Below are positions 18,468-34,271 of a stretch of DNA of 64,000 bases, in pieces; position 1 is the first letter of the stretch; each line of letters opens with the position of its first letter. Source of the stretch: Lacrimispora saccharolytica. GTDB taxonomy: Bacteria > Bacillota > Clostridia > Lachnospirales > Lachnospiraceae. Made by a program: the position numbers and the translations under genes. The DNA lies in NCBI GenBank assembly GCA_016899975.1, contig JACJJN010000007.1:1-64000 (forward strand). Direction: 5' to 3'. The notes under the pieces are model-generated. The model saw only the letters and a list, made by a program, of their open reading frames with translations, was not told the origin of the DNA and made no database searches.

Positions 18468-18497
18468 TATTTATGCCAGACAACCTGAAAACCTTAT

Positions 18498-18571
18498 GGC
18501 GAGATAGCTCAGTTGGCTAGAGCATACGGTTCATACCCGTAGTGTCGAGGGTTCGAATCCCCCTCTCGCTA
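18498..18571 (+). tRNA. tRNA-Met(CAU), copy 1
   Basis: The 74-nt cloverleaf has acceptor GGCGAGA/TCTCGCT with a terminal G-U pair, anticodon loop TTCATAC (CAU) and T-loop TTCGAAT. It looks like an elongator Met tRNA; an Ile tRNA with modified C34 is less likely. CCA is not encoded. Confidence 0.92.
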
Positions 18572-18601
18572 TTTATTTTTTTCCTTTTTACAGTTTCATA
18601 T

Positions 18602-18675
18602 GGCGAGATAGCTCAGTTGGCTAGAGCATGCGGTTCATACCCGCAGTGTCGAGGGTTCAAATCCCCCTCTCGCTA
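18602..18675 (+). tRNA. tRNA-Met(CAU), copy 2
   Basis: This copy differs from copy 1 by a compensated pair in the anticodon stem (TACGG/CCGTA becomes TGCGG/CCGCA) and TTCAAAT in the T-loop. It lies 30 bp downstream in the same transcript. Confidence 0.92.
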
Positions 18676-18681
18676 CGCAGA

Positions 18682-19219: not shown

Positions 19220-19320
19220 AATTCGTACTCCTTTTCTCTCTTGTGCGGCTCGCCGCTTTTCTTTTATCATACCGCAGCTTCCATCAAAAGTCCAGCTTTA
19301 CCTTTTCCGTTCCGTTGGCT

Positions 19321-19393
19321 AGAGCGTGTTTGAAAATTGCTTTCTGCGAGATGTGCGTCACAGTTTGTGGGAATGAATTTTCAAACACGCTCT
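19321..19393. repeat. 73-bp palindromic intergenic element (GAGCGTGTTTGAAAATT family)
   Basis: Arms of 18 bp (19321-19338 and 19376-19393) are perfectly complementary around a 37-bp centre. Related elements lie at 36046-36090 (full) and at 30145 and 37116 (one arm). It lies just after the AraC gene and could act as a structured 3' end. Confidence 0.9.
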
Positions 19394-19415
19394 AAACTGC
19401 TGCTTCATCATTCTA

Positions 19416-20249
19416 TTATCCTTTCCGCAGGCTGCTGGGCATGCATCCGTAAATTTCCTTGAACATTTTTGTGAAAAGTTTGTAATTGGTAAAACCGTGT
19501 TTTTCCGCGATCACCATAATATTGTCCTGAGTATTCACGATGTCATCGTAAATATGCACCAGCCGCACCAGGTTGACGTGGCGGGCATAGTTGATTCCCA
19601 TGTGCTGTTTGAAGAACCGGCAGAAGTATTCTCTGCTCAGTCCGACCTCGGACGCGACCGCCTCCAGCGAGATGGGTTCCCGGTAATGTTCTCTTACATA
19701 ATTGGTAATCTCATTGAGCCGTTCCCGGACTCTGGCGTCCTTTACGTCTTCTGTCTCCACTTCTCTTGTGCAGAAATCGTTCAGCAGCAGAAACATTACT
19801 TCCATTACAATCGCTTCACAGCGCATTTTGTATCCCACCGGCTGCAGAATGTACATCCGCGGCATCTCTTTCATCATCTCGCAGATTTTCAGATAGCTGT
19901 CCAGTTTTTCCCGTTCCAGCGTCTCCCTGGAGCATTCCAGGTGGCAGACGTCCAGATCCGGGACATATTTTTTCAGGAATTCCCGTGATACATAGATGGA
20001 AACACCCATGGAGACTCTGGCACATTGGGTATGATGGATCACATTGGAATCCACCAGCAGAAATTCACCGCTGACCAGCGCATGACGCTTTTTCCCGAAA
20101 AAAATCTCGCCGGTGCCGTTCAGGGCGTAGTGCAGTTCCAGCGCCGAATGCCAGTGGGGCGGCGTATATTCTCCTCTCTGGGTATAATAACGGATGCTGA
20201 TCCCGGTCTTGTCCAGATCATAAATCTGTTCATATATAACATTGTTCAT
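19416..20249 (-). CDS. AraC family transcriptional regulator
   Basis: The 277-residue protein has an N-terminal cupin (about residues 10-120; HWHSALELHYALNGTGE) and a C-terminal double helix-turn-helix (about 175-277; ISLEAVASEVGLSREYFCRFF and NIMVIAEKHGFTNYKLF). Such regulators usually sense a sugar or small metabolite and activate a nearby gene. It is divergent from a 40-residue protein gene, with paired repeats between them. The start at 20249 follows GGAGAAGAGAAG. The ligand is unknown. Confidence 0.92.
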   Translation of the reverse strand: MNNVIYEQIYDLDKTGISIRYYTQRGEYTPPHWHSALELHYALNGTGEIFFGKKRHALVSGEFLLVDSNVIHHTQCARVSMGVSIYVSREFLKKYVPDLDVCHLECSRETLEREKLDSYLKICEMMKEMPRMYILQPVGYKMRCEAIVMEVMFLLLNDFCTREVETEDVKDARVRERLNEITNYVREHYREPISLEAVASEVGLSREYFCRFFKQHMGINYARHVNLVRLVHIYDDIVNTQDNIMVIAEKHGFTNYKLFTKMFKEIYGCMPSSLRKG

Positions 20250-20283
20250 CTTCTCTTCTCCCGCTTTTTCCTGCTTTTTCGAT

Positions 20284-20326
20284 GACAATATGTCAATATT
20301 GGACAATAACTAGTCAATTACTGTCC
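20284..20326. promoter_or_regulatory. candidate AraC operator repeats
   Basis: GTCAAT occurs at 20292-20297 and 20313-20318, 21 bp apart (two DNA turns). GACAATA occurs at 20284-20290 and again at 20302-20308 within GGACAATA. The block lies between the divergent AraC and microprotein genes. Spacing fits direct half-sites for an AraC dimer; binding is inferred. Confidence 0.45.
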
Positions 20327-20415
20327 TAATCTCCCCTTACTTTTAGTGCTATGATAATTCATGTAATCGATAAGAACAACACAGACACATTGAAAGATTG
20401 AAAGGAGTCATTGAT

Positions 20416-20538
20416 ATGTCTAATAATACAAAAAAATCTTTAAAAGAAAGAATCGCAAACTTCGTTCAGAGAAACTCTGAATACTTCGAGAGCCTCTCTA
20501 CTTTCCTTGGAAACATTGACTACAATCCGTACAACTAA
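20416..20538 (+). CDS. 40-residue microprotein
   Basis: The frame has an excellent AAAGGAG site 8 nt before the ATG and encodes MSNNTKKSLKERIANFVQRN then SEYFESLSTFLGNIDYNPYN. The N-terminal half would form an amphipathic basic helix; the tail is aromatic and polar. A rho-independent terminator follows at 20613-20662. Its divergence from an AraC regulator suggests it may be the regulated target. I recognise no family. Confidence 0.65.
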   Translation: MSNNTKKSLKERIANFVQRNSEYFESLSTFLGNIDYNPYN

Positions 20539-20612: not shown

Positions 20613-20662
20613 GGCGGGACAGGAAAATCATCCTATTTTGATTGACCTTCCCGCTCTTTTTT
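20613..20662 (+). terminator. bidirectional terminator
   Basis: GCGGGA-AGG pairs with CCT-TCCCGC, with further pairing inside, followed by seven T residues on the plus strand. It lies between the microprotein and the xdhC-like gene end. Confidence 0.75.
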
Positions 20663-33618: not shown

Positions 33619-34271
33619 GGCCTTACCACCCTGCCTGCTTCTGTCAGGACTTCCACAATCTCATACATGTTGGTCACAGACCCTACCGCCAGCTGCTCCG
33701 ACTTCCCATAATGATTCAGACAGGTGCCGCAGGTCAGGATCTTCACTCCCTGTTCTTCCAGCCTGCGCAGATCCTCCAGACAATCGGAGCCTTCACAGGA
33801 GAGAAGCGCTCCTCCGTTGTACAGCAGAATCGTCTCCGGAAGCTGTCTCTGTTCTGTCAGTGCATAGACAAAGCTTTTCATCAAAAGTTTTCCAAGAACC
33901 GGATCTTTCTGGCCCATCTCATCGGAAGACAACACAACCACCAGACCATGTCCTGTGGACGGTGCAGCTGCTTGTTCCGGCATTGGCTCTTGATCCTCTG
34001 TTTCCTTGTCCTTCCCGCTCCCGTTTTCCACCGTTTCTTCGGAATTGTTCCCGTTTTTCCAGATTTCCACCAGGTAACAGCCGTCCTGAACCTTTTCACT
34101 GTCTGCCTGGTACTGTTTCTGTGCCGCCATCTTACAGAGATTCTGCACCGCAATTTCATTGTCCACCAGAACTTCCACTTTTGCCCCCTCCGGGGAAGCT
34201 TCCAGCGCACGCTTGGCTTCAATGACCGGAAGCGGGCATGCCTTTCCTCTTGCATCAATCTGTTTGATCAT
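33615..34271 (-). CDS. yedF: sulfurtransferase-like selenium metabolism protein YedF
   Basis: The 218-residue protein has an N-terminal TusA-like domain (about residues 1-70; DARGKACPLPVIEAK with the CPxP Cys), an acidic linker, and a C-terminal DsrE-like domain (YNGGALLSCEGSDCLEDL, KILTCGTCLNHYG). This is the selenium-associated YedF layout, usually beside selD as here. It may carry selenium or sulfur as a persulfide-like species. The start at 34271 follows AAAGGAAC. Confidence 0.93.
   Translation of the reverse strand: MIKQIDARGKACPLPVIEAKRALEASPEGAKVEVLVDNEIAVQNLCKMAAQKQYQADSEKVQDGCYLVEIWKNGNNSEETVENGSGKDKETEDQEPMPEQAAAPSTGHGLVVVLSSDEMGQKDPVLGKLLMKSFVYALTEQRQLPETILLYNGGALLSCEGSDCLEDLRRLEEQGVKILTCGTCLNHYGKSEQLAVGSVTNMYEIVEVLTEAGRVVRP

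Follow-up and report, generated by a model that had tools for sequence, protein, structure and literature searches.

A candidate AraC-controlled microprotein family in Lachnospiraceae

A divergent regulator and microprotein gene

In the 64,000-nt stretch of DNA analysed here (the window), the gene of an AraC-type regulator of 277 aa (19416–20249, minus strand) is divergent from a 40-codon ORF on the plus strand (20416–20538) that encodes the microprotein MSNNTKKSLKERIANFVQRNSEYFESLSTFLGNIDYNPYN. The ORF begins with ATG, and its ribosome binding site, AAAGGAG at 20401–20407, was read from the sequence and ends 8 nt 5′ of the start, in agreement with the initial annotation; three genus homologues carry AAAGGAGG.

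The regulator combines an N-terminal cupin sensor domain with a C-terminal double helix-turn-helix (HTH) domain (AF2 mean pLDDT 88.7). Pfam places AraC_binding (34.9 bits; cut-off 21.1) and Cupin_2 (32.1 bits; cut-off 27.2) on the N-terminus and HTH_18 (58.5 bits; cut-off 33.6) and HTH_AraC (43.7 bits; cut-off 26.6) on the C-terminus, and the closest matches among solved folds come from ToxT, Rns, CsvR and BgaR, each at 10–13% identity. Across 29 regulator orthologues, residues H32, H34, E38, G45 and H72 do not vary, giving an HxHxxxE...H set that we take to resemble the metal-site pattern of cupins. The best NCBIfam match, AryK (NF047455; E = 8.1e-37), covers about a third of the model and scores 126.9 bits against a cut-off of 850, and the regulator was not accepted as a member.

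Distribution of the microprotein family

The microprotein belongs to an unnamed family of about 29–67 residues in Lachnospiraceae, which was found by following the AraC gene. In the genus (Fusicatenibacter), the microprotein and the same AraC gene occur together in four of seven genomes, the window's included, and both are absent from the other three, where the best AraC match is just 31–32% identical. The homologues in G001, G003 and G005 (45–51% identical; E = 2.8e-6 to 7e-8) each adjoin an AraC gene 86–87% identical to the window's, and the G005 locus also has the HIT and XdhC neighbours (domains by Pfam) seen in the window. Three of the six other genus genomes therefore keep the frame, and the conservation in relatives on which the gene call had been staked beforehand was found. 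Searches of the microprotein's own genome gave no second match to it. Of the 13 places that the 40-residue query matched, nine, all outside the genus, were dropped as chance or as frames inside long ORFs; weak matches inside long ORFs or with stops were likewise left out of the family searches.

Beyond the genus, the AraC gene was found at 46–53% identity in four other Lachnospiraceae genomes. A small divergent ORF with the pattern K-x-S-[LF]-x-E-R-x-x-K-Y-x-x-[ED]-N lies beside AraC in G228, G427 and G323, and in G402 the microprotein is on a different contig from AraC. A scan of genome contigs with an AraC alignment, from which the best 80 of 178 loci were taken, yielded a microprotein recognised by our microprotein HMM at 31 of these best 80, many of the 31 being in the HMM seed; four of the 80 have upstream sequence of less than 320 nt, and not every partner is linked. 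The same HMM, which was trained on AraC-linked loci, matched in 33 of 397 family genomes at E ≤ 0.01 and strongly (E < 1e-5) in 12, with AraC-unlinked copies among them. An order-wide search of 246 genomes, four of which had a match, gave nothing convincing outside the family; one match, from outside the family, contains an internal stop, and one lies within a 690-aa frame. Genera with family loci include Blautia, Mediterraneibacter, Faecalicatena, Anaerostipes, Roseburia and Fusicatenibacter. The earlier statement that the protein has no known family agrees with a scan of 22 members against Pfam, NCBIfam and PHROG, in which no family match was shared and each match occurred in a single member (best E = 9.2e-4). 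A search of the open-licence PMC literature found nothing on the AraC–microprotein pair. The way the family was found also shows that a regulator gene can be a better probe than sequence search where microproteins are very short and divergent.

At E ≤ 1e-60, the AraC gene is present in 14 of the 397 family genomes; the strong microprotein is present in 12 and both in 9 (p = 7e-13, a value inflated by the AraC-linked loci in the HMM training set). Four of the six copies outside the training set are in AraC-positive genomes (p = 1.4e-5), two of them (G404 and G216) being weak and picked by eye; for strong copies alone, the figure is two of four. Five AraC-positive genomes have no strong microprotein: G404 and G216 have the weak matches, G345 has a 29-aa candidate, G278 has a 70-aa ORF and G073 has none. 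The microprotein is present and the operator described below absent in G206 and G401, neither of which is among the 14 AraC-positive genomes, and in G034 the microprotein lies beside an AraC match of 102 residues only. Clustering of neighbours over 51 loci placed AraC at 42 of 51; the next largest cluster reached 10 of 51, all at loci without an adjacent microprotein. A conserved operon partner besides AraC was rejected, since no other cluster exceeded 10 of the 51 loci.

Coding evidence

The dN/dS ratio of the microprotein was finite in 17 of 20 close family pairs, at 0.08–0.61 (14 of the 17 at 0.08–0.23), and that of the AraC partner gene was 0.02–0.07 in 19 of 20; dS was saturated in all three pairs of the window's own microprotein and in one AraC pair. 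Judged by these ratios, the microprotein codons are under purifying selection across the family. Within the genus, the microprotein diverges much faster than AraC, at 46–54% identity in the window's pairs as against 86–87%. With homologues in the genus, purifying selection in close family pairs and a terminator of its own, the ORF at 20416–20538 is very probably a real gene, and the initial call is backed by comparative evidence.

A tandem candidate operator

The paired repeats that had been noticed between the two genes are best described as a tandem candidate AraC operator. The distal half-site is GTCAATATTGGACAAT (20292–20307, plus strand), and the proximal half-site, GTCAATTACTGTCCTA (20313–20328, plus strand), starts 21 bp past the distal start and reaches the place of a −35 box. 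Automated repeat finding in the window did not report the pair, but relatives conserve it. Across the family, the half-sites begin with GTCAA and are 21 or 22 bp apart. Of 43 microproteins, 40 have the pattern GTCAATATYGNCNWAA-N5/6-GTCAA upstream with three or fewer mismatches, AraC-unlinked copies included; it lies 73–207 nt from the ATG (83–107 nt for 35 of the 40) and always points to the microprotein gene. For 39 of the 40, none of 100 shuffled sequences equalled the match (one of 100 for L126), and the best reverse-strand match has 4–9 mismatches. The exceptions are L129 (4 mismatches), L150 (6) and L151 (7). These counts are to be read knowing that the pattern was partly derived from sites that were later counted.

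Good sites are rare elsewhere. In its own genome, the window's is the only site with at most one mismatch to the 21-bp pattern, and five sites have two mismatches, against six for a reversed control. A scan of 30 genomes at the 21-bp spacing only, so that the 22-bp sites of L070 and L149 fall outside the count, gave 17 sites with at most one mismatch, of which 14 lie in front of a microprotein, including unlinked or second copies in G272, G216, G311 and G482. The other three adjoin AraC-family genes without a recognised microprotein. The good site in G278:C37 has a divergent 70-aa ORF that the microprotein HMM does not recognise, and the one in G404:C141 faces a divergent BspA-type leucine-rich-repeat protein. 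At two mismatches, two of seven sites (G345, G486) precede a microprotein, and the 89 sites with three mismatches are about as many as the 92 total matches of the reversed control pattern. The 30-genome pattern fits the window's own site with three mismatches and misses the known sites of G001, G003 and G005, so within this genus the scarcity of other targets rests on the own-genome scan.

Two arrangements stand out among these good sites. The third site without a recognised microprotein, at L192 (G216:C59, 1–1557), precedes an AraC-family regulator that carries a fused glycoside hydrolase 39 domain. G482:C5 has two operator–microprotein copies (at 34162 and 42838) separated by about 8.7 kb, and one copy adjoins AraC.

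Because the operator accompanies the gene even far from AraC and good sites are rare elsewhere, the microprotein looks like the regulator's output, as far as comparison of sequences can tell. The proposal that it is the controlled target of the AraC regulator thus gains comparative support, from an operator that tracks the microprotein and from a promoter of class II-like form. If so, the family, which is absent from Pfam, NCBIfam and PHROG, is accompanied in gut genera by its predicted activator and by an operator that can be read from sequence, and one regulator with essentially one microprotein target would offer a clean handle leading from an inducer to one 40-residue protein to a phenotype.

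Promoter, transcript and terminator

The predicted microprotein promoter has a −10 hexamer, TATGAT (20350–20355, plus strand), 37 nt past the start of the proximal half-site. When 39 promoters were aligned on that half-site, CT stood at offsets 13–14 (97% and 100%) and the −10 box at the same fixed offset of 37 (T37 97%, A38 95%, A41 95%, T42 95%), and a −35 consensus was absent from the 39. Tandem half-sites, a proximal site over −35, fixed −10 spacing and a poor −35 are the features of class II promoters, and the 39 aligned promoters show them all. A transcription start about 7 nt past the −10 box puts the centre of the proximal half-site near −41, the class II activator position. This geometry favours activation over repression, and we consider it likely, with good confidence, that the AraC protein activates the microprotein promoter. 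Known AraC class II activators, as at araI1-I2, use two tandem half-sites about 21 bp apart with the proximal one at −35. The system described here resembles them both in half-site geometry and in the fold of the regulator (ToxT, Rns, BgaR); it differs in that known targets are catabolic or virulence operons, whereas here the target would be a lone microprotein gene.

Downstream lies an intrinsic terminator (20613–20662, plus strand) formed by a hairpin at 20613–20655 and a T run. The hairpin has an MFE of −20.6 kcal/mol (z = −5.07; none of 200 shuffles was as good), although a simple hairpin scan with loops of 3–8 did not detect it, and terminators scoring at least 11 follow 25 of 33 members, against 1.6 expected in shuffles. 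The dedicated terminator of the initial annotation is therefore present and recurs in the family, and we infer that the microprotein is made from a single-gene transcript. The four Fusicatenibacter terminators (window 20613–20655 and L060–L062) keep an inner AAAATC-n5-ATTTT hairpin within the GC stem, and three of them match it exactly.

The bases presumed to be transcribed first, GTAAA...A at offsets 50–59 (window 20363–20372), are also unusually conserved across the 39 promoters, perhaps for promoter escape or mRNA stability. Such conservation, and the low dS of the microprotein (0.10–0.53) beside AraC in several Blautia pairs, would fit a regulatory RNA or attenuator leader in which the ORF is incidental. 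This reading seems to us highly improbable: the amino acids are under purifying selection and the ribosome binding site is conserved, the terminator lies 3′ of the ORF with the next gene on the opposite strand, no Rfam match was found here, and folding of the 5′ region is unremarkable (z = 0.36).

Predicted structure and possible roles of the microprotein

From 32 sequences, AF2 predicted a single helix at residues 9–32 of the window's microprotein (block pLDDT 65, 82, 73 and 58; pTM 0.33); the model is a helix, and nothing further can be read from it. A search of solved structures with the microprotein gave no match (best E = 0.56). The earlier description of the protein as a basic amphipathic helix is partly right: the helix stands as a prediction, the best 18-residue helical moment (0.51) was matched by 18 of 300 shuffles of the same sequence, and the net charge is +1. 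Basicity is not a family trait, since the charge spans −2 to +7 in 33 members. An alignment of 32 members shows one Asn and one Gly that are each at least 90% conserved and no conserved Cys; the near-invariant Gly is followed by a short variable C-terminal tail, often with [YF]xP (examples are DYNPYN, DYVPFN and TYIPTNLRNR).

The suggestion that the protein is a peptide signal, antimicrobial or membrane-active factor is not established by our results. Inspection by eye revealed no apparent signal peptide or membrane span, no neighbour cluster beyond AraC exceeded 10 of 51 loci, and the C39 frames found are short. Peptidase_C39 matches occur in five of seven genus genomes, where they are weak (24–26 bits) and confined to frames of 275–328 aa, too short for peptidase-containing ABC transporters, although a contig-split transporter could be missed; the C39 domain of a G404 transporter scores 123 bits. 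A GG/GA/GS cleavage site is found only in some members, and the window protein has GN. Double-glycine export through a PCAT in the genus is thus not supported, since there are only short C39 frames and the GG motif is not kept.

An antimicrobial or membrane-active peptide would be in keeping with helical moments of 0.34–0.59 over 33 members and the positive charge of many of them, and in G404:C161 (L154) the C39-peptidase ABC transporter (Pfam) that had suggested PCAT export lies downstream of a family member in the same orientation. The idea is nonetheless very unlikely: the charge range includes negative values, just 11 of 33 moments exceed shuffles at 5% (reached by at most 15 of 300), the neighbour clusters of the 51 loci contain no recurrent immunity or transporter gene, and the G404 transporter has no other strong match among the compared loci.

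The fast divergence of the microprotein relative to AraC and the variable tails would also suit a reading in which the C-terminal tail is released and switches on its cognate AraC regulator, in the way that SHP acts on Rgg. The regulator is often beside a small ORF that is the main promoter target detected, and Rgg/SHP, RopB/LCP and other Firmicutes RRNPP circuits have a similar two-gene layout, with a regulator gene beside a small ORF under its control. The regulators of those circuits are TPR-type peptide receptors. Here, in contrast, a cupin AraC protein bearing an invariant HxHxxxE...H set takes that place, and membership of the RRNPP or Rgg–SHP group was rejected for this reason. Signs of export or maturation were likewise not found (no signal peptide by eye, and genus C39 matches only in short frames), and unlinked copies of the microprotein would be unusual for a signal. 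We regard a released signal as unlikely. A narrower variant, which we consider quite unlikely, is that cupin AraC proteins recognise the tail of the leaderless microprotein they switch on, with lineage-specific tails serving as codes; if true, this would be a new, widespread kind of signalling outside every known peptide-receptor family.

The microprotein could instead be a negative feedback partner that dampens the AraC protein by binding to it, much as AggR is held in check by the ANR protein Aar. Aar is itself switched on by AggR (PMC4038620), and our locus resembles that pair in its divergent layout and in the predicted activation of the small gene by its AraC partner. More broadly, ANR pairs such as Aar/AggR and Rnr/RegA share with our locus a very small protein encoded near, and often divergent from, an AraC/XylS activator. 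According to PMC4038620, ANR proteins have three predicted helices and a conserved Cys, whereas AF2 predicts one helix (9–32) here and no Cys is conserved, and ANR membership was rejected. The ANR systems belong to Gram-negative pathogens and have partners with large regulons, AggR controlling at least 44 genes (PMC4038620); the present system is in Lachnospiraceae, has a dedicated operator and shows few other detected targets and no large regulon. A regulator whose only product was its own inhibitor would have no output, and we think feedback rather unlikely.

Our preferred model is that the locus is a dedicated sensor-to-microprotein switch with an intracellular effector, which we give about an even chance of being the best explanation. 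The AraC-type protein would sense a signal through its cupin domain and bind the two tandem half-sites in the intergenic region; from there, in a class II position where a −35 box is missing, it would activate the microprotein promoter. The resulting protein, 40 residues long and translated from a transcript of its own, would have a short flexible tail and one predicted helix, and the helix may dock on a partner protein or a membrane surface. That the microprotein acts inside the cell is a roughly balanced proposition, drawn by analogy with other small bacterial effector proteins. It is favoured because a circuit whose sole target was a feedback inhibitor would lack an output.

Other features of the window

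Between the HIT-domain gene and AraC lies a palindromic element of 75 nt (19320–19394) with 19-nt arms, TAGAGCGTGTTTGAAAATT. Allowing at most two mismatches, the genome has 85 copies of the arm, against none for a reversed control, which points to a REP- or MITE-like repeat family. Two tandem tRNA-Met(CAT) genes (18497–18572 and 18602–18676), very similar by eye, follow a tRNA-Val gene.
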